Shown: piece by piece, positions 7,595 to 64,000 of the stretch | How positions within the stretch are numbered: the first letter of the stretch is position 1 | Layout of the letters: each line of letters opens with the position of its first letter | NCBI RefSeq assembly: GCF_016906535.1 | Contig: NC_057372.1 | Span: forward strand, 1,531,501 to 1,595,500 | From: Rhizoctonia solani | Lineage: Eukaryota > Basidiomycota > Agaricomycetes > Cantharellales > Ceratobasidiaceae | Reading direction: 5' to 3' | DNA: 64,000 nucleotides | The notes under the pieces: model-generated | What the model was told of the DNA's origin: nothing | Databases searched by the model: none | Seen by the model: the letters and a program-made list of their open reading frames with translations, nothing else | Position numbers and translations under genes: made by a program

Positions 7595-10500
7595 TTAAAG
7601 GCTCTTGGCAGAGTCACAAGCCTTTTTCAGTTGTGACTTGTTGAAGCAACGGATTTCCTCTTGGCTATGTTCCAGTAGTTCCTCTGGTTCCCAAGAGTTG
7701 TCTTCTGGCCTGTACCCTTTCCATTTGATTAGGTAGAACCACTTTCCTCGTTGCCTCTTGGAATCTATGATCTGTTCCACCTCGTATTCTTCCTCTCCTC
7801 TTATTGTTTCAGGAGGGGGACGTTCCAGGAATGGCTGGTTTGGTGATTTGTGGCTTTTGGAAAGTAGTCCTATGTAGAAAACATCATGGATCTTCAATGA
7901 TTCAGGGAGCTTTAGGCGGTAAGCGTGGCTTGAGATCTTCTTGGTGACTTCAAAAGGACCTAGGCGCTTGGGGTCTAATTTGTTGGAGTTGGATTGAATC
8001 TCCACATTTTTTGCGTCTAGCCATACTTTTTCCCCAATAGTGTATTCTGGGGTCGTGCCTTTTACTCCTGCCATTCTTTCCTTTGTCATCCTTAAAGCAG
8101 ATTCTGCCTCCTTCCATTCCTGTGCAAGGGTGTCCGCTACAAGGTCTGCTTCTGGGACGTTTGCTGGGACGTTGGATGGGTTCATTACCAGGTTTCTTCC
8201 ATAAACTAGTTCAAAAGGGGTTTTCCCTGTGGCAGAATGCTTGGCGTTATTGTATGCATATTCAGCCAGCAGCAACCATGTGGCCCAATCTGAGTGATCT
8301 GCAGCCACATACAATCTGAGGTAGAACTCTATGAACTGGTTGACCCTTTCCGTTTGACCATCTGATTCCGGGTGATAGGCCAATGAGAATGCGGGCTTGA
8401 TTCCAAGTTGTTGGTATAGTGCCCTGAGGAACTTCCCGGTGAACGTGGTACCTCTATCAGAGATGGTTTTTATGGGTAGCCCATGTAACTTCCAGACGTG
8501 GTTGACAATTAAGTCCGCTAAACCCTTTGATGTGACCTTTTTCAAGGTGGGAATGAAATGGCCAAATTTTGAAAAGGAATCAATTACAACCAGTATGGCG
8601 TTGTGTCCCTGGGATTTGGGGAATCCTGTGATGAAGTCATAGGATATGGTGTGGAAAGGATAAGGGGGAACTTCTAAGGGTTTCAGGGAGATAGCTGGGG
8701 CGTGCGCGCGTCGGTTGGCTTGACAAACTGGACAGCATTCAACCCATTCTTTAGCAGAGGATTTCATTCCGGGCCACCAATAGCTTCTGCTGATAAGTTC
8801 AAGCGTCCTTTGTTGGCCTGGATGTCCTGCCAGTGGGGAGTTGTGGAATTCCCTCAGGAGTCGTTCTTTCAGGGGTTCTGAGTCCGGAACCACCAGTTTC
8901 CCGCGATACCATAGCAAATCTTCTTCCCAATCATAGTCCCTATAGGCCTTCCTAATTGAAGGGGGCGCGTTGTCTGCATCCTCAGTAAGGAATTTGATAA
9001 TTGGTTCCAGTGATGGGTCTTCCTTGAGCTTGGCGCAAATATCCATGACTATTTCTAATTCCTCTTCCGCTGTATTCGCAAAAACCTCTGGTGGTAACAT
9101 GACTTCTGGTTCTTGGGGGTTGTCAACATAGTCCAATCGTCTGGACAAGGCATCTGGCTTCCCTGATTGCTTCCCTGGGCGATAATGTATTTCAAAGTTG
9201 AAATTGCTCAGGAATACACGCCATCTAGCATGCCGTTGATTGAATGTCCTTGCCTGCATCCAGTACTCAAGGTTGCGGTGATCTGTGAATACCTGAACCG
9301 GCTTGTCCGTAGCTTCCAGGAAAATACGCCATTCTTCCAAGGCCTTGATGATGGCCAGGAGTTCCTTGTTGTGGGTGTTGTAGTTTCCTTCTGCCCCTGA
9401 GAATGACTTGGACATATACGCAATTGGGTGTAGTTGGTTATCTGGGCCCCGCTGACTAAGGATGGCTCCCATGGCAACCCCTGAGGCGTCTGTCTCAAGG
9501 TAATAGGGGAGCCCTGGGTTGGAATGGATGAGAACCGGCAACTTGGTGACAAGAATCTTCAATTCCTGAAATGCTGCTTCCTCTAGGTCGCCCCATGACC
9601 AGGGGGTTTCCTTTCTAGTAAGGTTGTGCAGGGGACGTGCTACTGAACTGAAGTTGGGGATGAATCGGCAGAGGTAGTTGACAAATCCTAGGAAGGCTTG
9701 GACCTGCTTGACTGTTTTGGGGGTTGGCCATGACGTGACTGCCTCAATCTTCTTCTGATCCATGGAAAAGCCTGCCGGGGAAATGACAATACCCAAGTAA
9801 TCCACTGTGGTGACATGGAAATGGCACTTGGAGAGTTTACAGAACAACTGATTCCTCATTAACCATGATAGGACTTCCCTGACATGGGTTGGGTGGTCCT
9901 TAAGGTCCTCTGAGAAGATCAGGATGTTGTCCAAGTAGATGACCACAGTGACGTCAATGAGGTCCCTAAACAGGTTGTTCATGAAGTGTTGGAAGGCGGC
10001 GGGGGCATTGGTGAGGCCAAAGGGCATCACCAGGTATTCAAATAGCCCGTACTTTGTTCTAAAAGCCGTCTTCCATTCGTCTCCTTCCTTAATCCGGACG
10101 TTGTTATAACCCCAGCGTAGATCAAGCTTTGTGAATATCTTAGCATGTCTCAGCTTTGCCATGAGGTTGTCCTGTCTTGGGAGTGGATATACATTTTTGT
10201 GGGTTACGTCATTGAGTTTCTGGTAATCCACAACCAGCCTAAGAGATCCGTCTGCTTTCTTAACAAACATGACTGGGGCGCCAGTGGAAGAAGTGCTGGG
10301 GTGGATCTTGCCCGTTGCTAATTCTTTGTCAATGTGCTGTTTGAGCGCCTTGGATTCAGCATCAGTCATGCCATATAAGGGTCCTGGGGATAGTTTGGCA
10401 TCCAGGACAAGGTCTATGGATATATCATACTCCCTATGTGGAGGGAGGACCTTAAATTCTTCCTCACCAAAGACTTTAGCAAATTCATGGTACTGCGGAG

Positions 10501-21164: not shown

Positions 21165-21336
21165 TGTCACAAACAGAGGAAAATAGAACTAGCCAGAATT
21201 GAACCAGCTTGACCACTAAGCCATAGAGCCCTATTATTCCCTGCTGAAAACCCATGATTACACCTGCTACCCCCCAAATTTGGGCTTGGGCCAGCATGCA
21301 ACCACTTGTACTGGTCATGCAACCATGTCCAGGACA
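21165..21336 (-). mobile_element. Mini LTR-like element with tRNA-type boxes, copy 1 (172 bp)
   Basis: This is the reverse complement of the repeats at 58463 and 60619, starting TGTCACAAAC and ending CCAGGACA on plus. On minus it contains TGGCTTAGTGG (matches the RNA polymerase III A-box consensus) and GGTTCAATTCT (B-box-like) only 7 nt apart. There is no matching target duplication, so it is older or rearranged. It has several differences from the other two copies. Confidence 0.75.
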
Positions 21337-21688
21337 CATTGGCTTGGCTTGATGTGCTGGAGAGGCTTACCAATGCATGCAAGGCCCCCCCTCCAACCAT
21401 GTGTGCCCCTCCCCCTCCTGTTGCCAAACTCCATGCATCCAATGCCCACAACATCTGGTACCATCAGTACCCTGTCAGATCCAAGCCATTGCAACTACTC
21501 ACCCAGAGCCAGATTGACAGCCTCATACCTGTGGTCAAAAAGTACCAAGCCAATACAGCTTTTGATCAGATTTAACACCTGTCTTTGGAGTACAAGGCAT
21601 TGATGTGTGTGTGCTGTCTGTAAGTCATAATGACAAGTACACATTATGCTCAAGTCCAAGGCTAATTTATTTTTGTTTTGATATAACA
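21337..21688 (+). other. Decayed coding-like sequence upstream of hAT pseudogene 2
   Basis: Open plus-strand stretches with a Pro-rich segment (KAPPPTMCAPPPP) and a short helical segment near 21480-21570. This may be the first exon of the hAT gene that follows or a separate remnant. I do not recognise it. Confidence 0.3.
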
Positions 21689-23907: not shown

Positions 23908-25249
23908 CTGCCTCCCCTCTAAGGGCCTTGGCAGCACCAAGGGCCTTCTTTTTCATCTCCTTTTCGAAATTTTTTAGGATTTTCTTGGCGTTTTTGAGGT
24001 TTTCCCTTGGTTCCCAGGTATTTTCCTCTGATCTGTAGCCTTTCCAATTAACCCTAAAGAACCATTCTCTGTTTTGTTCTTCCATGTCTGTGATCCCTTC
24101 TACCTTGTATTCTTCCTCCCTGTCAACTGTTACTGGGGGTGGTCTGTTCTCAAAGGTTCTGGCTTTGTCCCTTTTTACTTTCAATAGTAACCCCACATAG
24201 AAGACATTGTGGATTTTCATTGACAGGGGAAGTTCCAACCAGTAGGCCCTGTCAGAGATTTTCTCCATGATCTTGAAGGGTCTCAAGTGTTGTTCCATTA
24301 GCTTGGGGCTCAGGGTTTTAAGCTTGATATTCTTGGCATCAAGCCAAGCTTCTTCCCTGTTTTGAACTCTATGGGTACCTGGTCTGGTTCTCCTGCAATC
24401 ATACAGTTCTTGGCTTGCTGGAGTGTGGCTTCCACCTCCTTTCATTGACTTTCCATTACTTAGGCAAGATTGTCTGCCTCTGGTACATCTGTAGGAACAT
24501 TGCTGGGGGTCAAGGATGGTTCCCACCCATATAATGCCTTGAACAGTGTTTTCCCTGTACTACTGTGGACTGTGTTGTTATAGGCAAACCTGGCCATAGG
24601 GAGCCACCTGGTCCAGTCCTTTTGGTTGATGCCAGAGTATGCCCTCAGGAAGTTTTTGATTGATGGGTTCACATGTTTGGTCTGTCTGTCACTCTGTGGG
24701 ATGGTAAGCCAAAGAGAAGTGAGGGTCTATTCCCAGCCGTTTGTAAAGGGCTTTCAGGAACTTGTTATTGAACACCCTTCCCCTATCTGATATTGTCTTC
24801 TCTGGTATTCCATGATGTTTCCATACATGTTGTAGGAATAGTTCTGCTAACTCTGGTGCTTTGAGTTTCTTGGAACATTCAATAAAGATCCTGTAATTGG
24901 TGAAACTATTGATGATGACTAGGATGGAATCATAGGCTCCATCCTTTGGTAGATCAACAATCATATTGTACAAGATGTGTTGCCAGGGACATGATGGATT
25001 TCAAGGGGTTGAGGCAGAATGGAGGAGTACTTGGGCTTTCTGATGTGTTGGCATGTTTCACATGAGTCTACATGCCAGTAAGTATCTGCTCAGATGCCAG
25101 GCCAGTAGTAAGATTGGGATATCAATTCCAATGTTTGTTGCCTTCCAGGGTGCCCAGTCAAAGGGCTGTCATGGAAGATTTGTAACAGATCCATACATAG
25201 GGTACCAACACCAGGAACTGCTATTTGTCCTTGGTAAAACAATAGGCCA

Positions 25250-26771
25250 TGTTATGGATATTACATTTCTCCTATGATCTGTACTTATTTTATTAATTAC
25301 ACAAGTAATATTACAGCAAATAAAATCAGATAAAGATGCAAACTAAGATTTTCAAGGTACCTCTATCCAATTGCAACCTTTTCAAAACCTCTAAGCCTCA
25401 GGAATATCCTCAATATGCAATATCTTTTGCATATATGCTGTTTTCTCACTCATCTAAATATATGTAAATTCAGCTGAGTAGATAAACAGGAACAAGCAAT
25501 ATTTCTCCTGTTTATAGTATATATTATAGAAGATTCTATCTTGTGGCTACACACAGAAATATTCAGGGTCCTCCTGTTGCATAGGCAAGTGCTCCTGCAC
25601 TTAATCAGCACTTAAGCGCCAATGCAATAAATGCGCCTTTTTTCCATCAACCGGGCATCCCACACTACTGAATTGCTTGCGCTTAGGTGTGCCTGCCTGT
25701 GCGCTCCAGAACGCTGGCTCAAACTTCCAAAACGGACAACATTTGGCGGAGTTATGTCCTATTTACTGTAAGTACCCAATGTAGTGGTATCATACCTTTG
25801 GGACTGTTTACTCCAAAGATGAAACACTTAGCCTTGAGACATCCAAGGACCCACACAGGTAAATACTGCCTTGGGGCAAACATTGCCCTGGGGCAAATAT
25901 TAGGAACTGTTATTGTTTACCATGTACCAAAGTATTGGCTCTCCTAAGTGTTTCAGTTGCCACATGTACCTCCTGTACCCCCTCTTCATATCAATCATGT
26001 ATATACTTGTTTGTGTGCCTTTTCAGGGTATAAAAGGACCCTGTGAAGACGCTTCTAATGCATCCATTTATCCACTGTTATATATTGACATATACACACA
26101 AGCCTTTAACAGCTTATCTGCACATTTACTTTAGTGATTGACTCACTGTAAATAGCATAGGAGGTTATTTGGCACACTAAGACCATAGGCCAGTCCCAAC
26201 AGACACAGGGTAGCCTATTAGTGTACTTACTGCAACTCTGTGCCCCTTGACTGTCACAGTTGTTGAGTTCAACATTGAGTACAGTGCAATGATACTGTAA
26301 GGATTGTTGTGATTGAGTGATAGTGTATCAATCCACCATACCCCCCATATTGTAGATAGCTTTATCTACAAGATCTCATAGATCCTAGATATATTTTAGG
26401 TAAACCCCACAAGTCTTAAGTCTTACTTAAGCATCTATAAGTCCTATACTTATTAGGCAAATCCTGTAAATCCTGTACATTAGTCAGGTAACCCTCTTAC
26501 TTAAGGTACTATCCCAGAGACCTTAAGTATACATACCCTTAGTCACTTAGGCTTAAGTAACATTAGTCCAAGGTACTATACATAACCAACCACCTGCACT
26601 TCATAGTTGCTAGACTATTTGTTAGGAGTTGTTATTTCTGATCACCTAGCCAGTATTGTGCATATATTCTGTGCATATATTCTGATTTGTAATAGTAGTT
26701 CTTAGCTATTCTCATATACATTTTGTATATAGTAATTCTTTCTTACTCCTGTACTTATGCAACTCTTAACA
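25250..26771 (+). mobile_element. Solo LTR, family F (1522 bp)
   Basis: It begins TGTTATGGATATTAC and ends ACTCTTAACA, the reverse complement of the LTRs of element F. The flanks read GGCCA and GGCTG. Both derive by one transition from GGCCG, so the duplication has decayed at its CG. A GGTATAAAAGG TATA box lies near 26029. Confidence 0.9.
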
Positions 26772-40472: not shown

Positions 40473-41995
40473 TGTTAAGAGTCGTGTAAGTACAGGAGTA
40501 AGAAAGAATTACTATATACAAAATGTATATGGGAATAACTAAGAACTAGTATTAAGAATCAGAATATATGCACAGAATATATGCACAATATAGGCTAGGT
40601 TATCAGGAATAACAACTCCTAACAAATAGTCTAGCAACTATGAAGTGCAGGTGGTTGGTTATGTATAGTACCTTAGACTAATGTTACTTAAGCCTAAGTG
40701 ACCAAGGGTATGTATACTTAAGGTTTCTGGGATAGTACCTTAAGTAAGAGGGTTACCTGACTAATGTACAGGATTTATAGGACTTGCCTAATAAGTATAG
40801 GACTTATATATGCTTAAGTAAGACTTAAGACTTATGGGGTTTACCTAAAATATATCTAGGATTTATGAGATATTGTAGATAAAGCTATCTACAATATAAG
40901 GGGTATGGTGGATTGAAACACTGTCACTCAATCACAACAATCCTTGCAGTATTGTCGCACTATACTCAATGTTGAACTCAACAACTGTGACAGTCAAGGG
41001 GCACAGGGTTGCAGTAAGTACACTAATAGGTTACCCTGTGTCTGTTGGGACTGGCCTATGGTCTTAGTGCGCCGAATAACCTCCTATGCTATTTACAGTG
41101 AGTCAATCACTAAAGTAAATGCGCAGATAAGCTGTTAAAGGCTTGTGTGTATATGTCAATATATAAGAGTGGATAAATGGATGCATTAGAAGCGTCTTCA
41201 CAGGGTCCTTTTATACCCTGAGAAGGCGCACAAACAAGTATATACATGATTGATACCAAGAGGGGGTACAGGAGGTATATGTGGCAACTGAAACACTTGA
41301 GGGAGCCAATACTCTGGTACATAGTAAACAAACAATAGATACTAATATTTGCCCCAAGGCAATGTTTGCCCCAAGGCATTATTTACCTGTGTGGGTCCTT
41401 AGATGTCCCAAGGCTAAGTGTTTCATCCTTGGAGTAAACAATCCCAAAGGTAGGATACCTCTGCATTGGGTACTTACAGTAAATGGGGCATAACTCAGCC
41501 AAATGTTGTCCGTTTTGGGAGTTTGACCCAGCGTTCTGGAGCGCACAAACATGCGCACCTAAGCGCAAGCGATTCGGCAGTGTGGGATGCCCGGGTGATG
41601 GAGAAAAGGCGCATTTAGTGCGTCGGCGCTTAAGGGCTGATTAAGCGCCAGAGCACTTGCCTACGCGACAGGGGGGACCCTGAATATTTCTGTGTGTAGC
41701 CACAAGATAGAATCTTGAATAATAAATACTACAAACAAGAGAAATATTACTTGTTACTGTTTATCTACTCAGCTGAATTTATATATATTTAAATGAGTGA
41801 GAAAACAGCATATATGCAAAAGGCATTGCATATTAAGGGCATTCCTGAGCTTTGTAGGTTTTGTAAAGGTCACTATTGGATAGAGGGACCTTGAAAACCT
41901 TAGCTCGCATCTTTATCTCATTTATTTACTGTGAGATTACTAGTGTAATTAATAAAATAAGTACAGATTAAAGAAGAAATGTCATATCCATAACA
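40473..41995 (-). repeat. Element F 3' LTR
   Basis: TGTTAAGAGTCG to TCCATAACA on plus. A GGTATAAAAGG box reads on minus near 41215. It is nearly identical to the 5' LTR over the first 1.34 kb, but has about 21 differences in the last 150 bp before 41975. Confidence 0.93.
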
Positions 41996-42447
41996 TATCC
42001 CCCCCAATCTGGACTTATCCTATCAAGAGATGGCTTCCTAATTAAAGGTTTGATGCTAATTGATTATACCCCTTGAAATTGGAATTAAATTCCTTAATTT
42101 TATTGCTAAGTCTTAAGGTGTCGGAGCCATGGGCGCTTAAGGCTTAGTCACCCGCTCTGAGTCTTCAGTTGGTGCAGGGTATTTACTTGTTGTAATTATT
42201 ACAAGGTCAAATCCGAGGCTTTTGACTTAGTTAAAAGTGCTATCGATATCTATCGAATCGTGGCTATCGATCGGTACTAAGTGTGGTGGGACGTTCACAC
42301 GAATAAGGGTTGAATTCCTAGCGACGATTATTCAGACGAGTCAAAACGATTGGATTCGCGAGTACAGTATTAATGATCGCAGAATACAGGAATTGAGACG
42401 CGGAGAACGTTGAGATGTTGTATATACAGGCAGGGCACATGGTTAGC
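41996..42447 (-). other. Element F 3' untranslated region with polypurine tract
   Basis: About 450 bp between ORF3 and the 3' LTR. No gene is recognised. The polypurine tract adjoins the LTR. From about 42120 upward it becomes CpG-rich, including clustered ATCGAT-like sites at 42240-42270. Confidence 0.6.
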
Positions 42448-52584: not shown

Positions 52585-54107
52585 TGTTAAGAGTTGTGTA
52601 AGTACAGGAGTAAGAAAGAATTACTATATACAAAATGTATATGGGAATAACTAAGAACTAGTATTAAGAATCAGAATATATGCACAGAATATATGCACAA
52701 CATAGGCTAGGTTATCAGGAATAACAACTCCTAACAAATAGTCTAGCAACTATGAAGTGCAGGTGGTTGGTTATGTATAGTACCTTAGACTAATGTTACT
52801 TAAGCCTAAGTGACCAAGGGTATGTATACTTAAGGTTTCTGGGATAGTACCTTAAGTAAGAGGGTTACCTGACTAATGTACAGGATTTATAGGACTTGCC
52901 TAATAAGTATAGGACTTATATATGCTTAAGTAAGACTTAAGACTTATGGGGTTTACCTAAAATATATCTAGGATTTATGAGATATTGTAGATAAAGCTAT
53001 CTACAATATAAGGGGTATGGTGGATTGAAACACTATCACTCAATCACAACAATCCTTGCAGTATTGTTGCACTATACTCAATGTTGAACTCAACAACTGT
53101 GACAGTCAAGGGGCACAGGGTTGCAGTAAGTACACTAATAGGTTACCCTGTGTCTGTTGGGACTGGCCTATGGTCTTAGTGCGCCGAATAACCTCCTATG
53201 CTATTTACAGTGAGTCAATCACTAAAGTAAATGCGCAGATAAGCTGTTAAAGGCTTGTGTGTATATGTCAATATATAAGAGTGGATAAATGGATGCATTA
53301 GAAGCGTCTTCACAGGGTCCTTTTATACCCTGAGAAGGCGCACAAACAAGTATATACATGATTGATACCAAGAGGGGGTACAGGAGGTATATGTGGCAAC
53401 TGAAACACTTGAGGGAGCCAATACTTTGGTACATAGTAAACAAACAATAGATCCTAATATTTGCCCCAAGGCAATGTTTGCCCCAAGGCATTATTTACCT
53501 GTGTGGGTCCTTAGATGTCCCAAGGCTAAGTGTTTCATCCTTGGAGTAAACAATCCCAAAGGTAGGATACCTCTGCATTGGGTACTTACAGTAAATGGGG
53601 CATAACTCAGCCAAATGTTGTCCGTTTTGGGAGTTTGACCCAGCGTTCTGGAGCGCACAAACATGCGCACCTAAGCGCAAGTGATTCGGCAGTGTGGGAT
53701 GCCCGGGTGATGGAGAAAAGGCGCATTTAGTGCGTCGGCGCTTAAGGGCTGATTAAGCGCCAGAGCACTTGCCTACGCGACAGGGGGGACCCTGAATATT
53801 TCTGTGTGTAGCCACAAGATAGAATCTTGAATAATAAATACTACAAACAAGAGAAATATTACTTGTTACTGTTTATCTACTCAGCTGAATTTATATATAT
53901 TTAAATGAGTGAGAAAACAGCATATATGCAAAAGATATTGCATATTGAGGGTGTTCCTGAGGTTTATAGGTTTTGCAAAGGTTGCAATTGGATAGAAGGA
54001 CCTTGAAAACCTTAGTTTGGATCTCTATCTTATTTATTTACTGTAGTATTACTTGTGTAATTAATAAAATAAGTACAGATTAAAGAAGAAATGTCATATC
54101 CATAACA
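52585..54107 (-). repeat. Element F 5' LTR
   Basis: TGTTAAGAGTTG to TCCATAACA on plus. Its final 180 bp match the truncated F LTR at 62976 better than they match its own partner LTR. Confidence 0.93.
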
Positions 54108-54373
54108 GGATGCCTGCCTCAATGCAAGTGAGGCCATTGACAATTTGCGTGATCTGGCATGTGCCATAGCGTCTGATGCAAACTACATGCAATCTGAGGG
54201 GTGTATTGAGGTAAAAGAGTTCAGGTCTTTCTGAATCCATGTGAGGATAGCCTAGTTGGTGGTGTGCAATCACCCAGTGCGCTCTGTGGCAAGGGAAAAA
54301 AGAACTGTAAGAAGTAAAGGTGGGGATGAGGACCTGAGTGATGTCCAGGTTGATAAATTGGCTACAGCCAGGA

Positions 54374-55458: not shown

Positions 55459-56006
55459 TGTTGTACACCAACTGTAAGGTTGGGTACTTGCTAGTGGTGG
55501 GCACTTGAGGCCATACTACTACAGACAAAGATGACTAAGCTAAGGCTAAACTACTGGGAAAACCACTTAAGGCAGTGTGGAAAGGCCTAAGGCCAGTGAC
55601 AAGCTATTCTACTTGTGTGAGTGGGGGACCTTAGGGGTCCAAGCTACAGTTAGTCAGAGGTCTTATGGACCTAGCTACTGGAGACTACTGAGACCTGTCT
55701 GAGCAGTTAGACAAGGTAAAATTGACTTGGGGTCTCCAAGCAATTTTCCTGTGGTTTATATAGACATGAGAACTACATACAGGCAGTCTGTGCACATGAG
55801 AAAAAGGAAGAGTTCATGTGAAAAGAAGCATGCTGCAGGCTGCGCAGAAGCATGGTTATGTGCTAAGCACCCTTGGGACGGCATCTCAGCATAATAAGCA
55901 CTGAGGTCACATGACCAGAAAACAAAAGATATTGAGTCCGTAAAAAATACTAAAAATAAGAGAAAAAATAGGAGATTCCAATGGTAAAAATTGTAGGGGT
56001 GTAACA
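55459..56006 (-). mobile_element. Solo LTR, family A (548 bp), nested
   Basis: It begins TGTTGTACACC and ends GGGGTGTAACA, with target duplication TATCA at 55454-55458 and 56007-56011. Confidence 0.92.
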
Positions 56007-56118
56007 TATCATAACCAATAAGACCCCTGTTCCATTTGCAGCCTTACTCATGCATACATGTCACCTATGTGTCATAGTGATGTCATTGAGGTGTAGGTGG
56101 CTATGTATGCTGACTAAG

Positions 56119-56706
56119 TGTTACACCCTCATGAATAATACCCCTGGAATCCCCTTATGTTTTTGATATCTATAGTATTTTTTCCAAACTCTTTATCTGT
56201 TGTTTTTTCAATCATGTGATCTTGGCACCTACACATGCTGAGATGCCATGCTGAGATGCTGTGCCAGGATGCCATGCCAAGATGCCATGCCAAGGGTGCT
56301 TATTATAGATCCATGCTTCTGCACAGCCTGTAGCACACTTCTCATTTCACATGTAAACTTCTCTTCCCACATGCACAGACCACATGTACATAGCTCTCTT
56401 TGTTATAAATACAGCAGGGAAATTGCTTGGAGACCCCAAGTCAATTTTACCTTGTCTTTCATTACAGACAGGTACCTCAGTAGCTAAGTAGTTCAGGCCC
56501 CCATAGGCCCCTTACTCAATGACCATCTCAGTAGTTACCCCACCCTCACTGGCCTAAGGCCCCTCATCACCATCAGTAGTTAGTTAGACACTGCCATAAG
56601 CAGTTTAGTTAGTAGTAGTTAGCCTAGATAGTAGTTTTACCTTGTTTAGTACAGCCACAAGTGCCTGCCACTAGCAAGTACCCAACCTTACAGTTGGCAT
56701 ACAACA
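56119..56706 (+). mobile_element. Solo LTR, family A (588 bp), nested, opposite orientation
   Basis: It begins TGTTACACCCTC and ends TTGGCATACAACA, with target duplication CTAAG at 56114-56118 and 56707-56711. It contains several ATGCCATGC-type tandem variants near 56240-56300 in place of the GC-rich stretch of element A. Confidence 0.92.
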
Positions 56707-57301
56707 CTAAGCATGGAGGGGGACATGGCAAGGCACTTAGGGTATGACATAAGCGCTGAAGTCACATGATCAAAAATGTAGTCTGTTCTTTGTTTAAATT
56801 TGAGAAAATGGGAATAATTTCCCTGGTATTGAGTGTGTCTATGACAGGCACTTAGACAGTTTACAAAACAACTGGTTCCTCATTAGCCTTTATAGGACCT
56901 CCCTTATGTGGCTATTGTGATCCTTGGGGTTCTCAAACATCAGGATGTTGTCAAGGTAAATGACCACAGATACATCAATCAGGTCCCTGAATAAGTTGTT
57001 CATAAAGTGCTGGAAGGCCACTGGTGCATTGGTGAGACCAAAAGGCATGACTAGGTATTCAAACAACCCATATTTGGTTTGGAAGGCTGTCTTCCATTTG
57101 TCCCCTTCCTTGATGTGTATGTTGTTGTAGCCCCATCTGAGATCAAGCTTGGTGAAAATCTTGGTGTGGCATAGTTTGGTCATTAGATCATCTTGTTGGG
57201 GAAGAGGATAGACATTCTTTATAGCCATGTTGTTTGGCTTCCTATAATCCACCACCAGCCTGAGAGGACTGTCTGCCTTTTTGACAAACATGACCAGTGC
57301 C

Positions 57302-57580
57302 TGTCATAACCCATATCTGGAAGGGTTATTACCATATATATCCACTGTCAAAGATATATATAGTATATATGATGCACAGTGATAGATGAATAATATAAGT
57401 TGCTGGTGGACATTGCACTCCCCTGCCCCCCTAGCTGTGGGCCAATGTTAAGGGAGCCTGCAGGTAAGGTCTGAATATTATATTATTATAGAAGAGATTA
57501 TGTCATCTCCCCCCACCTCAAATCTGTAGTAGTTTAGTATAGTATTTGATAAAGGACTGGAGGGGGGGAGGTCATGTGAC
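57302..57580 (-). mobile_element. Family I LTR remnant
   Basis: Begins TGTCATAACCC and runs as the reverse complement of 17486-17923 through the G-run and GGTCATGTGACC. Similarity becomes uncertain after about 57580. It breaks element H pol at 57301. No second target duplication was found, so the right end is undefined. Confidence 0.75.
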
Positions 57581-57609
57581 CTGGACTTAGAGAATATCAC
57601 TAAGTCCAG
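57581..57609. repeat. Perfect hairpin: 10-bp stem, 9-nt loop
   Basis: CTGGACTTAG (57581-57590), loop AGAATATCA, CTAAGTCCAG (57600-57609). It lies 206 bp before the ATG of the Rep-like gene. CRESS-DNA virus origins are known to be stem-loops of about this size with a nonanucleotide such as TAATATTAC. GAATATCAC overlapping this loop matches that at 7 of 9 positions. It may instead be a diverged part of the adjacent LTR remnant. Confidence 0.45.
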
Positions 57610-57815
57610 CCATGTCAACCATAAATCTCTTATATGTGGGAACCTTGGGGTTCTGAGTGAATAAGTGCAAGTATTTCATGGCTGCTTGGTTACTGCATGG
57701 TGCCATTTTAATGTTCTGAAAAAAACTGGTAGAGCAAGTCATTCTCCTCTGACTCAGTCTCTTGGCCCCCATGGTATAAAGAAGAGGGCAGTGGGAGGTG
57801 GGATAAGTCATCACC

Positions 57816-59674
57816 ATGTCTCAATGCCCAACTGCCAGTGCCACTCCCTCAACAGTCTTGGATTCACAGCCTTCAGGGCTGTTGGATGCCACCCCCTATG
57901 TCTCCCAGATTGCATCTACTGTGTGGCAGAGTCAAGAGCTGCCTCTGTCACAGCTCACTCCCAGGGCTCTCAAAAGAAGGTTGGATCTGGACCCCCAAGA
58001 AGAAGGAGTAAGTGATCTTGTTTGGTAGCAAAAGATCCTTTTACTAAAAGATAACTGTATAGTCACAGATATCCTGCATGCTTCCCCCCTTGTCCAGGCG
58101 TTGGTTAGCAGTGCCCAGCAACAGGGAAGGCTCAGAAGATGGAGGAAACTCCATTGTCCCATCCATGGCTCCATTGGAGTCAAGGAGATCCATTGTTCCT
58201 GAAGCCCCTGAAGGGGAGGAGGACATTGGGGTTCTTCCCCAAGAAGGAAGGCGCTTCTGTTGTAAGGGGAAGTGCTATCTTCTCACTTATGCTTGCTATG
58301 TCAAGAGTGAGGAGACAAGGGAAACCTCTTGTCATGAGGTTATAAAAGAGTAAGTAGTCATATCAAGGATGTTTTTACTTTTACTGAAGTTTATCCAAGT
58401 CTTGTAGATCATCTTCTTACTCTAAGGAGTGGGGATAATTCCCTTTTGGAGTATGCCATGGGTGTCCTGGACATGGTCACATGACCAGTACAAGTGGTTG
58501 CATGCTGGCCCAAGCCCAACTTTGGGGGGTAGCAGGTGTAATCATGGGTTGTCAGCAGAGGAATAATAGGGCTCTATGGCTTAGTGGTCAAGCTGGTTCA
58601 ATTCCAGCTAGTTCTATTTTCCTCTGTTTATGACAATGGGAGTCACTGAGTCCCATGACCTGAGGGAAGGTGAATGGCAACCTGATTGGCATTGCCATGT
58701 TATTGTTTGGGCCAGGACCCTCATCTCATCAGAGGCCCTGAACCTGTGGAAGTGTAAGGGAGTGCGCCCTCATGAGCGTCTTCTTGTACTTAGGGATGAT
58801 AAGGGAAGGTTTGCCCCTTTATCAGCCTATGAATATCTCAAGAAGGAGGCAGATGCCTGGGAGGCAAGATATGGGACCCTTACAGAGGAGTTCTTATTAG
58901 GCCAGTGCCCTGCAGGGTTGAAGGCTAATACCAATGTAAGTCCCTGGGTATGGAAATAAGTTCTCAGCTGATGGTTCTCTCATTATAGCACAATGAAGAT
59001 TTTGCCTATGCCATGGAGGCATAGGATGCTGAGGGATTTTTTGGTTGCTTAAAGGAGTGCCAACCTTGTGATATGGCCATGGGGTATAACAACCTCAAGG
59101 CTTTCACTGGTTACTTTTACAGGGACAAGGGTGCCCTTCCTCAGGGTGTATGTGAGCCTAAGGCCCTTAAGAAGTAAGTCCTCTTCTTTTTCATGGTAGA
59201 AGGGAATGTTGACAAGTTGTTACCAGGGCTACAGTCACTCTGCCACCTGGTGTTCAGGAGTGGGTTACTTTCAATATACTGGAACATGACCCTGAATCTG
59301 ATTGTGGTAAGATCCTTGTTTTGTGGGGACGCTCAGAGACAGGGAAGTCAGCCCTGGCTTGTTCTTGGGGACATCACATTAGGTTCAGGCAGAACCTCAA
59401 CTCTGATGAGTTTAGTGACCATCCTATGGTTCAGTATGCAGTGCTGGATGATATGGATTGGTCCAAGGTTCCATTAAAGATGTGGGTGCAGGAAGACTTC
59501 AACTTCTGCACTAGTTACAGATCAGAGTGCCATTGCCAATGGGGGTGTTCTACTGTTATTTGTTCCAATTCTAAGCCTTCTGTCTTTGCTGATTGTAGTT
59601 ATGCCACAGTTGATGGCAAGAATTGGATTGACACCAATTGCACCTTTGTGTATATTGGTGATAAGTTGTATTAG
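57816..59674 (+). pseudogene. CRESS-type Rep-like gene (HUH nuclease and SF3 helicase), broken
   Basis: A TATAAA box at about 57775 and a good ATG context precede 57816. Exons by splice sites are 57816-58007, 58069-58349, 58400-58935 (minus the insertion at 58463-58640), 58989-59173, and about 59200-59674. The introns carry GTAAGT donors. Visible motifs are a YLLTYA-like motif I (58273 on), HCH (58690-58698) as the HUH metal site, YLKK (Tyr at 58834) as the nicking motif, Walker A GRSETGKS (59327-59350), Walker B YAVLDDMDW (59435-59461) and motif C with Asn (about 59549-59578). This order is that of geminivirus- and genomovirus-like Rep proteins, known to be endogenised in some fungi. A 173-bp element, a TAG at 59022 and a TGA near 59210 break it, so no active protein is expected. 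Residues before motif I form a long, non-viral-looking extension. Confidence 0.8.
58463..58635 (+). mobile_element. Mini LTR-like element with tRNA-type boxes, copy 2 (173 bp)
   Basis: TGTCCTGGACA to TGTTTATGACA, with target duplication ATGGG at 58458-58462 and 58636-58640 inside an exon of the Rep-like gene. It carries TGGCTTAGTGG and GGTTCAATTCC, 7 nt apart. It matches copy 3 except for one visible base. Confidence 0.88.
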
Positions 59675-59882
59675 ATAGTTCTTCTTCTCTTGTTTTGTTC
59701 CTTTGATTGAGTTTGTTTCTGTTCTTAATAAAGTGTCTCCCTTTTTCCTCCATTTGGTACTTAGAAATAAGATGGTTTTGGAAGATCAGATAAGACAGAT
59801 GGTTACTAAGAAGAAGCAAACATTGGAAGAAAAGGAAGAAGAGAAGGATGTAAGCTTATTGGATGGAATGTTACATATTTCA
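59675..59882. other. Short convergent 3' region between two genes
   Basis: It holds AATAAA at about 59726, a candidate poly(A) signal for the Rep-like gene, and purine-rich sequence. No gene is recognised. Confidence 0.45.
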
Positions 59883-61592
59883 TCACATTCCATCAGCATA
59901 ATCCAAGGGATTCCATTTGTTCATGGCCTTGTTACTTTCAAGGTCAGACTCATGTCCTCCTTCATCACTTAGTTGATGGATTGCTAGGTTGGATATACTT
60001 CTGCTCAGGTCATTCTGAGCTGCTTGCATGGCCCATTGTTTGAGCCAGTCATGTAGATCCTCTATGCTCATTTTGTGTTCTAGGATCATGTAATAGACAT
60101 CCTCAGGGGTGAGGTTGTCCACATAGCCACCTAAGCCTGATGGCAATTTGTCTTTCCAGTTTTCAGTTTCTGCAGCCAGCCATTCCCTTACTGTTGAGAT
60201 TGGTATCCACCATTCAGGATCAATTTCCTCAATGTCTAGATGCCACTCTGCTAACTTCCTTGTGTGCTTTAGCACTGGGGCCCTCACTACATCCTCCACA
60301 GAGGCACCCACATTACCTCTACACACAAAGAACTTGGTGCTTTGCATTAGTTTGGGTTGTTTTGGTGGCTCACTGCCAACCCAGCAGAGGTATCCCCTGA
60401 TTGGACAGCATAGGGTTCTTCCAATCCAGTAGCACTTCCATTGTTGGCCCATTGGTATGTAATCAAGGGTTGCTGAGGGATCAAGTAGTTTGGCATAAGC
60501 CTTGGATTGTTGGAAGGAGTCACATCTTGTGATGACCTTTTGCCAGTCATGGATGTTGGTGATAGGGGGTTGATCATTCCCCATGTCCCAGCCCATGGAT
60601 GGATCTGGGGGTGCCCATTGTCCTGGACATGGTCACATGACCAGTACAAGTGATTGCATGCTGGCCCAAGCCCAACTTTGGGGGGTAGCAGGTGTAATCA
60701 TGGGTTGTCAGCAGAGGAATAATAGGGCTCTATGGCTTAGTGGTCAAGCTGGTTCAATTCCAGCTAGTTCTATTTTCCTCTGTTTATGACACCCATTGAT
60801 CCAGGTTGTCCTGGGACCAAGGGAGCTTGGTCCTGTGCTCACTGGATCTGTCAAGGGGGTAAGAGATGGTATCTCCAGTTGCCTTGGAGATCCTGGTCTC
60901 TGTTCTGATGGCAGGCATGATGTCTTAGTGATGGGAATGGATAAGAAGGTAGTGGTGCCAGTGGTGGTTTGTGATGACTCCCCAGCCATGGGATGCCTTC
61001 CTGTATACCCTGGGTTGCCAGGACCCTTATCTTTCTGCTTATCAGACCCTTTGTTGCCCTTTGCCCTAGGATTACATGATCTCCTATGTTCTTCAGTAGA
61101 GTGGTTAGTTCTCCCACACACCTCACATTGGATTTCAGTAGACCCTGATTTGTCAGAATTGGATTCACTGTTGTTCTCAGCTTCCCAGAGGGAAGACAAG
61201 GGAAGTATTTTATCCAATTAGTCAATTACTTCCTGAGAAATACCTTGATCTAGCATTTCCTGTTCCATCTTCAGATGGTTGTCAATATGTTTCTCCAACC
61301 TTTTGACTCCCATTACTAGTTCCATTAAGAATCCATAGACCTTTTGGGTACTTGTAAGGTGGTCATTAGTAATCTGTTTCTTGTTTGCCTCAGTTTTTGC
61401 TGGTTGAGTCTCCTTAGGGAATTTGGCAAAGAAGTCTTCAATAAAATCCTTCACTGTCTTATTCCTGGTTGCCTCATCTACCAAAGGGGTTTCCTCTTCC
61501 CTGGCAACAGGGTCCTCCAAGGGTGTATTATTCCCTGGATTCTCATGCCTAGGGTCTAGGATCCTAGCAGTAGCAAATTGAAATGGTTCCAT
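59883..61592 (-). pseudogene. Uncharacterised zinc-knuckle gene, convergent with the Rep-like gene
   Basis: ATG 61592 opens an acidic, charged N-terminal region with a helical stretch (KVYGFLMELVMGVKRLEKHI). A TAA at 61218-61220 interrupts the frame where CAA would fit. A knuckle-like CEVCGRTNHSTEEHRRSC (about 61065-61120) and a Gly/Ser/Thr-rich linker follow. The mini element is inserted at 60619-60791 (duplication CCCAT). The C-terminal part, 60618-59883, is Trp/Cys-rich (WKCYWIGRTLCCPIRGYLCW) and ends in helices, and it is in a shifted frame relative to the first part. A knuckle plus linker suggests a nucleic-acid-binding or gag-like protein. I do not recognise a family. Confidence 0.55.
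60619..60791 (+). mobile_element. Mini LTR-like element with tRNA-type boxes, copy 3 (173 bp)
   Basis: TGTCCTGGACA to TGTTTATGACA, with target duplication CCCAT at 60614-60618 and 60792-60796. It is nearly identical to copy 2, so both moved recently relative to the CpG-decayed surroundings. Confidence 0.88.
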
Positions 61593-62975
61593 ATCCAGTT
61601 GGTTAGCCTGTTTAGAAGGGGTAATTCCTACTCAATCCTGATGTCCCTGTTCCATGCCTTGCATAGGAGATGTCAGCTCCATGACATGACCATGTTCAGA
61701 GTTATCCAATTGGGGTAAAGTCCCAAATACATGCCTAGGTTGCATCTTGTGGAATCCCATGTTGTTGCAAGAAGGCCAGATAGAGCAGTAGAATAGTCTC
61801 TATTAATCACAAGTTCCAAGATATACCTATCTTAGTCAGTAAGAGGCAAAATAGTGCAACCCACAAAGGAAGTCTTTAGCTGTTTGCAAAAGGAAGACAA
61901 GAAGTCTCAGTTAGTAAGAGGCAAAATAGCACAACCCACAGAGGAAGTCTTTAGCTATTTGCAAGTAAAGTAGTGGACACCTAGGGTCCTAGTGATGAGA
62001 AGACTCTGACAGTACTTCTTATCACCAATCAGATAGAAGGATCAGTGGAGATCCTTTGTTGACAGTTGTTGATAGTTGAATTTCAAATAAATCATGCAGT
62101 TGCTCTTTTTGAGGTGTAGCAACACCTGCTTGTCCCTATAGGTTGTAAGACAAGGGAAAACAAGCTGGTTTGTAAGCAGCTTGTTCTGCCCCTATATACC
62201 TGGGCATCACTTGGGTCTATATACATATTTCAAGTAGGAGCACAGGCTTTTGGAGCCGTAGCACAGACTCAAGAAGCATCATGAGTCAAAGAACCCCGTG
62301 GAAGTGTTTAATTAGCCAATCAGATGCCAAGAAATACACCAGTGATGTGAGGTCTTGGCAGAGTTGGTTCTATTTTTAGCACATGATCATGTGGAACACT
62401 GCTTAAGTATGACTCATACTCTTGGCATGCAGAGCCACAACATAAGTATGACTCATCCAATTTCCTTATATGGTAATCCTATTCCACAATCCAGCCTGGT
62501 TTCACCCGGAGATCAAGCACAGCCATCATCATGTGATTATGGTGGTGCTTGATGACTAATCATCCATAGTCTCAGTCATGTGACTTGTGGCTAGGTTGAA
62601 TACTTGCTGACTAAGCATCTGTCCTCATGCTTGGTCATCCTTGATTTGTCATTCATGAGTCAATCATGTGACTTGATTGCTGACTCATCATAGTTTGGAT
62701 GACTAAGCTTAGTCATCCATCCATTTCATCTTCTTCCTAATTTGGAAAGGAGAGTGCCATTTTTGGTAATTCTAAGTTGCTTAGTTTCTACTTGTCTTGA
62801 AGGTCTTCTTCAAGTTATGTGTCTTTCCTAATTAGGAAGATGAATTACCATAAATGGTAATCTGAAGTTGTGTTGTTGGGACAATATGTTGTGCATCATT
62901 GATGTAGGGGCATTAGTCATCCCTACATCCCCTATAGGCAATACATATACACATATATGTATATATATTGGGTAT
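61593..62975. other. Non-coding stretch with short repeats
   Basis: No supported gene. It contains a 52-bp tandem duplication (next entry), four TGACTCA-type sites between 62410 and 62687, several CATGTGACTT-like repeats and a TATATGTATATATAT run near 62955. Confidence 0.4.
61838..61963 (+). repeat. Direct repeat, two units of about 52 bp, 75-bp period
   Basis: AGTAAGAGGCAAAATAG..TTTGCAA occurs at 61838-61889 and again at 61913-61963, with a few mismatches, mostly transitions. Confidence 0.75.
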
Positions 62976-63740
62976 TGTTATGGATATGACATTTCTTCAA
63001 TAATCTGTACTTATTTTATTAATTACACAAGTAATACTACAGTAAATAAATAAGATAGAGATCCAAACTAAGGTTTTCAAGGTCCTTCTATCCAATTGCA
63101 ACCTTTGCAAAACTTATAAACCTCAGGAACACCCTCAATATGCAATATCTTTTGCATATATGCTGTTTTCTCACTCATTTCAATATATATAAATTCAGCT
63201 GAGCAGATAAACAGTAACAAGGAATATTTCCATTGTTTGTAGTATTTATTACTCAAGATTCTATCTTGTGGCTACACACAGAAATATTCAGGGTCCCCCC
63301 TGTTGCATAGGCAAGTGCTCTGGCGCTTAATCAGCGCTTAAGCGCCAACGCACTAAATGCGCCTTTTCTCCATCACCCGGGCATCCCACACTGCCGAATC
63401 ACTTGCGCTTAGGTGCGCCTGTTTGTGCGCTCCAGAACGCTGGGTCAAACTCCCAAAACGGACAACATTTGGCAGAGTTATGCCTCATTTACTGTAAGTA
63501 CCCAATGCAGAGATATCCTACCTTTGGGACTGTTTACTCCAAGGATGAAACACTTAGCCTTGGGACATCTAAGGACCCACACAGGTAAATACTGCCTTGG
63601 GGCAAATATTAGGATATGTTATTTGTTTACTATGTACCTAAGTATTGGTTCCCTCAAGTGTTTCAGTTGCCACATGTACCTCCTGTACCCCCTCTTGGTA
63701 TCAATCATGTATATACTTGTTTGTGCACCTTCTCAGGGTA
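62976..63740 (+). mobile_element. Truncated family F LTR
   Basis: It begins TGTTATGGATATGAC and follows the F LTR in its own orientation for about 765 bp, keeping GCGC-rich stretches. It then stops at CTCAGGGTA, exactly where the LTR TATA box (TATAAAAGG) should follow. Confidence 0.85.
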
Positions 63741-64000
63741 CACTGAGCAGCAAAAGTATTGCAGGTCAGGAGAGGTCAAAGGTTTATCTCCATTGCTGAG
63801 CATCCAATAAGTGAATGCCATCCAAATTTTACTGACACATGTAGCCATTGTAACACTATGCTGTAGCACAAAATCTCACAAATCCATCATGAACTAAGCT
63901 CACAACCCCACTTTTGCTATAATGCAACCTGCAAAACTTTTGCTGATTGTGTTGAGCCTCTTCAAAATCTGCACATAACTGATTATGCAGTTCAGTACAA
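63741..64000. other. Window end, nothing recognised
   Basis: About 260 bp of CpG-free AT-rich sequence without a gene or repeat I can identify. Confidence 0.35.

Follow-up and report, generated by a model that had tools for sequence, protein, structure and literature searches.

The window analysed here is a 64,000-nucleotide stretch of the Rhizoctonia solani genome, in which positions 57816-59674 of the plus strand hold a gene of five exons with the motifs of a Rep protein of the CRESS (circular Rep-encoding single-stranded DNA) type. Most probably, this Rep gene is the antisense cargo of a non-autonomous, Gypsy-dependent family of long terminal repeat (LTR) retrotransposons of R. solani and is under selection. 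The copy in the window is a broken member of this wider family, with a 173-bp insertion in exon 3, a stop in exon 4 and ~0.33 kb lost upstream. The original prediction had taken it for a single captured and disrupted gene among transposons; the gene is in fact multicopy, with open, selected copies of it elsewhere in the genome. Rep-like sequences of fungi are commonly interpreted as remnants of integrated viruses, whereas here Rep would be a maintained part of a retrotransposon, and a replication gene of DNA-virus type would be spreading by reverse transcription. A Rep gene within a transposon is already known; an antisense, intron-bearing and selected Rep inside an LTR retrotransposon is not described in the open-licence literature searched, which is weak evidence of absence.

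The carrier element and its autonomous partner

Comparison of 20 stretches of 9.9 kb around Rep copies revealed sequence that is conserved well beyond the gene and that delimits a carrier element of ~6.1 kb. The element is bounded by direct LTRs of ~465 bp (alignments of 465-476 columns) with TG...CA ends, both of which are present in seven of the 20 fetched loci; in nearly all pairs the LTR starts with TGTCATAACC and finishes with GTCATGACA. The two LTRs of a pair are 97.6-99.6% identical in six cases and 92.2% identical in the seventh, and the flanking 5-bp target duplications are exact for four of the seven pairs, match at four of five bases for one and are lacking for two. The polypurine tract (PPT), next to the left LTR, is on the minus strand and therefore defines this strand as the sense of the retrotransposon (retro-sense), to which Rep is antisense. 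The primer-binding site (PBS) side is conserved across the LTR family (positions 8404-8433 of the oriented copy L029), but its start is not TGG. A self-priming PBS of the Tf1 type is not supported, as no complementarity of at least six bases between LTR and PBS was found.

Among the frames of at least 110 amino acids in four copies of the element (L029, L032, L037 and L027), neither a reverse transcriptase nor an integrase was found; these frames are the Rep exons, two further open reading frames (ORFs) and the frames that overlap them. The genome has 41 LTR-PPT junctions when at most two mismatches are allowed and 43 PBS-LTR junctions when at most three are, the LTR search having scored 40 of 281 first-look candidates. 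A PBS-side junction pairs with 28 of the 41 LTR-PPT junctions, leaving 13 unpaired, and 12 of the 28 pairs enclose Rep (nine of them with 5.1-5.3 kb inside), while four enclose 6.6-6.7 kb, ten enclose 2.2 kb, one 3.4 kb and one 13.1 kb. The one 6.6-kb member that was read, L044, encodes gag, reverse transcriptase, RNase H and integrase domains of the Ty3/Gypsy type, with a stop within the reverse transcriptase. Its LTRs are 94.6-94.9% identical to those of the Rep element over ~410 bp, and the PPT and leader match as well, so that the Rep element, judged from its sequence, is a non-autonomous relative of this Gypsy element. By contrast, nothing in L044 corresponds to the central ~4 kb of the Rep element, which comprises Rep and the two ORFs. 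The one 2.2-kb member that was read, L045 (G000:C4:646690-649920), contains no frame of at least 110 amino acids, and nine further places have the same LTR ends with 2.2 kb inside. A copy on contig C9 that lacks Rep (L046) was considered as a Rep-less form of the element and rejected as a fragment.

The Rep element thus shares its LTRs (~95%) and leader with an autonomous element and is without a reverse transcriptase or integrase of its own, which suggests that it is mobilised in trans. The autonomous Ty3/Gypsy element would supply the enzymes and copy the Rep element by way of RNA. The introns of Rep would survive retrotransposition because the genomic RNA of the element is antisense to them, and Rep itself would be transcribed and spliced from its own promoter. 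The arrangement illustrates how a gene with introns can be carried undamaged by a retroelement if it lies antisense to the genomic RNA.

Structure and identity of the Rep gene

A search of the 40.7-Mb genome (16 contigs) with the helicase exon, exon 5, yielded 23 matches of 86-100% identity, which correspond to 22 loci once one split copy is joined. Seventeen copies, namely that of the window and 16 of the 20 fetched loci, could be aligned over Rep; L025, L041, L042 and L043 were excluded as fragments or as split by insertions. All five tested exon pieces are open and full length in eight of the 17 copies (exon 2 was tested from 58165 on), so that open paralogues, for which the original prediction had proposed to look, do occur in the same genome; a stop or an altered length affects the other nine copies. 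Part of Rep exons 4-5, 648 bp long, also occurs without the LTR carrier and flanked by other repeats (L041:4525-5173 and L042:4507-5155), in two stretches that are 98.5% identical over 7.2 kb.

The gene follows the plan proposed in the original prediction, with Rep-like motifs in the canonical order, several exons with short introns, a TATA box and a poly(A) signal. The TATAAA (57775-57780, plus strand) is present in 16 of the 17 aligned copies. Exon 1 (57816-58007) encodes an N-terminal extension beginning MSQCPT..., and its donor, GTAAGTG at 58008, is intact in all 17. That the gene has a long N-terminal extension is supported by the R. solani protein P0012, which is 71% identical and begins with a similar MSQCPT... 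exon. Intron 1 has two candidate acceptors, which place the start of exon 2 at 58069 or 58098, and the junction of exons 1 and 2 is provisional. Exon 2 ends at 58349 and includes motif I (CYLLTY); its donor at 58350 is intact in all 17 copies, as are both the GT and the AG of intron 2 (58350-58399), within which the copies diverge by 26% on average. Exon 3 (58400-58935) contains the HUH motif WHCHV and motif III, YLKKE. It is followed by intron 3 (58936-58988), by exon 4 (58989-59173), a linker towards the helicase, and by intron 4 (59174-59226). Exon 5 (59227-59674) contributes the helicase motifs of superfamily 3 (SF3) type (Walker A, Walker B and motif C) and the stop codon, and an AATAAA at 59727-59732 is present in 16 of 17 copies, within a 3' untranslated region (UTR) of 20% mean divergence. 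Throughout the aligned copies, introns 2-4 retain both GT and AG, and intron 1 retains its GT. Since motifs, frames and signals are conserved across copies, a chance origin of this gene structure is excluded.

The lesions of the window copy agree in part with what had been predicted. The copy is indeed broken by an insertion in exon 3, 173 bp in length and flanked by the target duplication ATGGG, while only one of two expected stops was found in the tested exon pieces, in frame in exon 4, an exon that is stop-free in 16 of the 17 aligned copies.

The case for a CRESS-type Rep begins with the order of its motifs, with motif I in exon 2, the HUH motif and motif III in exon 3 and, in exon 5, Walker A, Walker B and motif C, which we take to be the CRESS Rep and SF3 helicase motifs known under these names. 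Motif I is also found in the relatives P0016 and P0019. The catalytic H, H, Y and K are invariant in a 15-row alignment of relatives, and in a 10-row helicase alignment GxSxTGKS and DD are invariant and the N of motif C is nearly so. Profile searches were less forthcoming. Scanned singly against Pfam, window exons 1, 2, 3 and 5 gave nothing above cut-off, and the catalytic domain PF00799 was matched neither by these four exons nor by the frames of other copies or the relatives scanned. The PF08283 (Gemini_AL1_M) region of the window gene spans exons 4 and 5 across an intron, and the exons were scanned unjoined; the cut-off of 24 bits is passed by one spliced R. solani relative, P0006 (25.8 bits), with P0004 (12.4) and P0025 (12.8) scoring below it. 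A low-confidence model of the HUH domain of a relative has CRESS Reps as its nearest structures. For the helicase, no profile matched and the structure model was unusable. Searches of PDB sequences with the window helicase exon and with exon-3 and exon-5 profiles returned nothing significant (the Rep of adeno-associated virus, AAV, appears only at E ~0.65), and neither did PHROGs and NCBIfam; no relative was confirmed in IMG/VR with the exon-5 and exon-3 alignments, and a plasmid search with P0016 gave no match. The nonanucleotide origin (TAATATTAC or TA[AG]TATTAC) is absent from L029, the one full-length copy examined, where a degenerate form matches many AT-rich places. A hairpin at the LTR end was rejected as a Rep-specific origin, as the Rep-less L044 and L045 also have it. 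The proposal of a geminivirus-type Rep thus rests on motif order, on PF08283 in P0006 and on the low-confidence HUH model, with no Pfam match above cut-off for the four window exons scanned and none to PF00799. The assignment to the CRESS Reps needs care.

The named database relatives of exons 3 and 5 (one of six in one search and 14 of 21 in another) belong to R. solani or Ceratobasidium sp. 423. In an exon-3 tree of 15 database proteins and 11 open in-frame pieces from the genome itself (14 were tried), the window family, with both of the alleles described below, forms a group with proteins labelled RHS01, RHS03 and RhiTH at a support of 100/99, and the AG-8, 123E and Ceratobasidium sequences fall outside it. 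Among the gene models of relatives, which are predicted annotations, P0024, P0008, P0006 and P0025 join exons 2-3, 3-4 and 4-5 where the window gene does, while those of other relatives splice differently.

Selection, alleles and competing explanations

The ratio of non-synonymous to synonymous polymorphism (pN/pS) over the 136 pairs of aligned copies is 0.30, 0.47, 0.12, 0.07 and 0.12 for exons 1-5, respectively (for exon 3, on 58636-58935). In the other two frames of exons 3-5, pN/pS is 0.90-2.26. The signal is weaker in exon 1, where the other frames give 0.57 and 1.23, and in exon 2, which lies slightly under its other frames (0.56 and 0.78). Mean divergence among copies reaches 14-26% in introns 2-4 and the 3' UTR and is ~7% in intron 1 and the 5' flank. 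Exons 3-5 are thus well supported, and exons 1-2 less so.

Changes in exons 3-5 were also sorted by their distribution, and their ratio of non-synonymous to synonymous changes (N:S) was compared with a neutral expectation of 3.0 derived from the mutation spectrum of non-coding columns; L034, a near-duplicate of L033, was left out. Relative to neutral, N:S is 0.06 for fixed differences between the two Rep alleles, A and B (p 3e-18), 0.20 for the 16 changes shared within an allele (p 2e-3), 0.17 for other shared changes (p 4e-9) and 0.37 for changes seen in a single copy (49 N, 44 S; p = 2.7e-6), classes that are not fully independent owing to recombination among copies. As single-copy and within-allele changes are themselves constrained, the constraint seems to have acted also on copies already inside the element. 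Rep has thus been under purifying selection, which seems to have continued while its copies sat within the retrotransposon.

Alleles A and B differ by up to 25%, whereas the backbones of young copies differ by 0.5-5%. Between L029 and L032, two young copies with different alleles compared in 200-bp steps, divergence is 5-25% in the region that stretches from where exon 1 ends to the 3' UTR of Rep, and 0.5-5% over most of the remainder; older copies such as L038 and L033 have a more divergent backbone, by up to 18% in one step (the element-wide comparison covers 15 of the 20 loci, in 14 chosen pairs). A set of 211 sites distinguishes two A from two B copies, and when scored at these sites most copies are predominantly of one type. 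In three of the 17 (L026, L030 and L038), B-like sequence gives way to A-like sequence at exon 3/intron 3, and further copies are partly mixed, L036 most of all. The disparity between Rep region and backbone implies separate histories, either of old alleles swapped between elements or of two captures. In the former case, template switching during reverse transcription may have exchanged the alleles.

Several of these observations weigh against selected cargo and point to repeated capture, in which the constraint would stem from a Rep gene elsewhere (a host gene, plasmid, mycovirus or other transposon) and A and B would have been taken up at different times as passive cargo. The divergence of the alleles far exceeds that of the young backbones, the differences between them are the most constrained class of all, Rep relatives exist in other R. 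solani groups and in Ceratobasidium sp. 423, and the piece of exons 4-5 in L041 and L042 lies outside the LTR carrier. We nevertheless regard repeated capture as the less probable account, though the most serious of the competitors. Within-allele and single-copy changes are constrained too, the same two ORFs stand beside Rep in the 12 copies compared, and the exon-3 search uncovered no divergent Rep, all 23 of its rows being 80-100% identical to the window.

That Rep is instead a domesticated host gene, serving the fungus and merely spread by retrotransposons, would be in keeping with its own promoter, introns and poly(A) signal and with its presence across Rhizoctonia lineages, but seems improbable: no single-copy locus was seen, several of the 22 loci are truncated or split, nine of the 17 aligned copies have a lesion, and within the element only the Rep region is divided into two alleles. 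Those same lesions, together with the insertion, stop and deletion of the window copy, are what would be expected of a dead endogenous viral relic that is carried by chance and decaying. While this description holds for the window copy alone, it is ruled out for the family as a whole by copy number and selection, with five full-length, open exon pieces in eight of 17 copies and purifying selection acting on them, and we consider it very improbable.

The preferred reading, that of a selected antisense cargo, leaves room for more than one function. The Rep protein may help the element in trans as a nicking endonuclease and helicase. The step that it serves is a matter of conjecture, the most likely candidates being the amplification or maintenance of extrachromosomal element DNA and a disturbance of host silencing or cell cycle like that attributed to the Reps of plant geminiviruses. 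A bolder and doubtful version makes the element a hybrid with two replication engines, one operating on RNA through the borrowed Gypsy reverse transcriptase and the other, an antisense spliced Rep nickase-helicase, on element DNA. As a second copying route, Rep would nick and unwind extrachromosomal LTR circles or linear cDNA, and rolling-circle copying would multiply the substrate for integration. The invariant or nearly invariant endonuclease (15 rows) and helicase (10 rows) residues, and selection on copies inside the element, are consistent with such a route, which we nonetheless hold to be unlikely, given that no origin motif was found in L029 and that the terminal hairpin is common to Rep-less members. 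It is equally speculative that Rep acts in such a two-engine element by rolling-circle amplification of circles or by strand-specific nicking during integration, and that the two alleles represent two specificities maintained separately within a backbone that is homogenised. The 22 loci and two alleles of this single genome make it testable whether fungal Rep-like genes still do anything.

Surroundings of the window copy and comparison with known systems

The window element begins at 57302, where the left LTR (57302-57688, the 3' LTR in retro-sense) aligns to the ~465-bp LTRs but has lost its end in the ~0.33-kb deletion. The right LTR is outside the window and the element probably ends beyond it; a same-orientation LTR junction lies at G000:C3:1597563. 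On the minus strand, in retro-sense and convergent to Rep, 59883-60618 is the remnant of a 287-amino-acid ORF (oriented positions 5467-6327 of L029) with no Pfam match above cut-off. In 12 other copies its pN/pS is 0.11 in the non-overlapping part, a sign of purifying selection on this ORF as well, and the frame is open in ten. Two database relatives of this ORF are named 'Vegetative incompatibility protein HET-E-1', apparently a mislabelling. A 449-amino-acid ORF in the gag position, also in retro-sense and with a zinc-knuckle-like CX2CX4HX4H, has left a remnant at 60792-61631 (minus strand); in the 12 other copies its pN/pS is 0.34 in the N-terminal part and the frame is open in five. It has no Pfam match above cut-off, blastp against the L044 gag ORFs gave nothing below E 0.9, and the idea that it is the gag of the partner is ruled out by this lack of significant similarity. 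The remainder of the internal region (61632-62975) includes the start of the leader common to the autonomous Gypsy element.

The insertion in Rep exon 3 (58463-58635) is a solo LTR of Helenus type with TG...CA ends. A second such solo LTR lies at 60619-60791 with the target duplication CCCAT, and the two 173-bp insertions are 99.4% identical; a third, related stretch is present at 21165-21339. By eye, the insertions have tRNA-like A and B boxes, and ARAGORN detected no tRNA in the 173-bp insertion or elsewhere in the window. Helenus elements are described in PMC10886601, in the main text of which Rhizoctonia is not named. A repeat of ~1.5 kb occurs at least four times in the window (62976-63740, 25238-26771, 40473-41998 and 52585-54108), and the first of these copies seems to have entered the Rep element in its right-hand part. 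Rfam found nothing in 56000-64000.

With genomovirus and geminivirus Reps, the Rhizoctonia Rep shares its motif order, and among its relatives one has a PF08283 match and one a low-confidence HUH model that is closest to CRESS Reps, but it differs in its four introns and N-terminal extension, in the lack of a PF00799 match, and in that no viral origin motif or capsid gene was seen. Helitrons are eukaryotic transposons with an HUH protein and a Pif1-type helicase, in contrast to the LTRs, target duplications and SF3-type helicase motifs of the Rhizoctonia element, and a Helitron is ruled out by the LTRs and target duplications. Non-autonomous LTR retrotransposons with foreign internal sequence include large retrotransposon derivatives (LARD), terminal-repeat retrotransposons with a gag domain (TR-GAG) and gene-capturing elements. 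Like these, the Rhizoctonia element has no polymerase and takes its LTRs, PPT and leader after an autonomous partner, but its cargo is distinct, being an antisense, intron-bearing Rep under purifying selection.

Rep-like genes of geminivirus type are also reported in Laccaria bicolor (five genes), a basidiomycete, and in several ascomycetes (PMC3198968); no LTR carrier is described for them in the available part of that source. The closest parallel is the geminivirus-like transposon of Tuber melanosporum, whose Rep genes, remnants included, number 42 (Liu et al. 2011, PMC3198968), and which is likewise a multicopy mobile element of a fungus with a geminivirus-type Rep-like ORF. A TIR (terminal inverted repeat) transposon of the Tuber type is ruled out for Rhizoctonia, where the termini are direct LTRs with target duplications and neither of the two other ORFs matches a Pfam profile above cut-off. 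The Tuber element has 37-bp TIRs and two transposase ORFs, its Rep ORF is interrupted and it shows no obvious target duplications (PMC3198968), whereas the Rhizoctonia element, in which no transposase was found, combines LTRs and 5-bp duplications with an intron-bearing Rep under selection.
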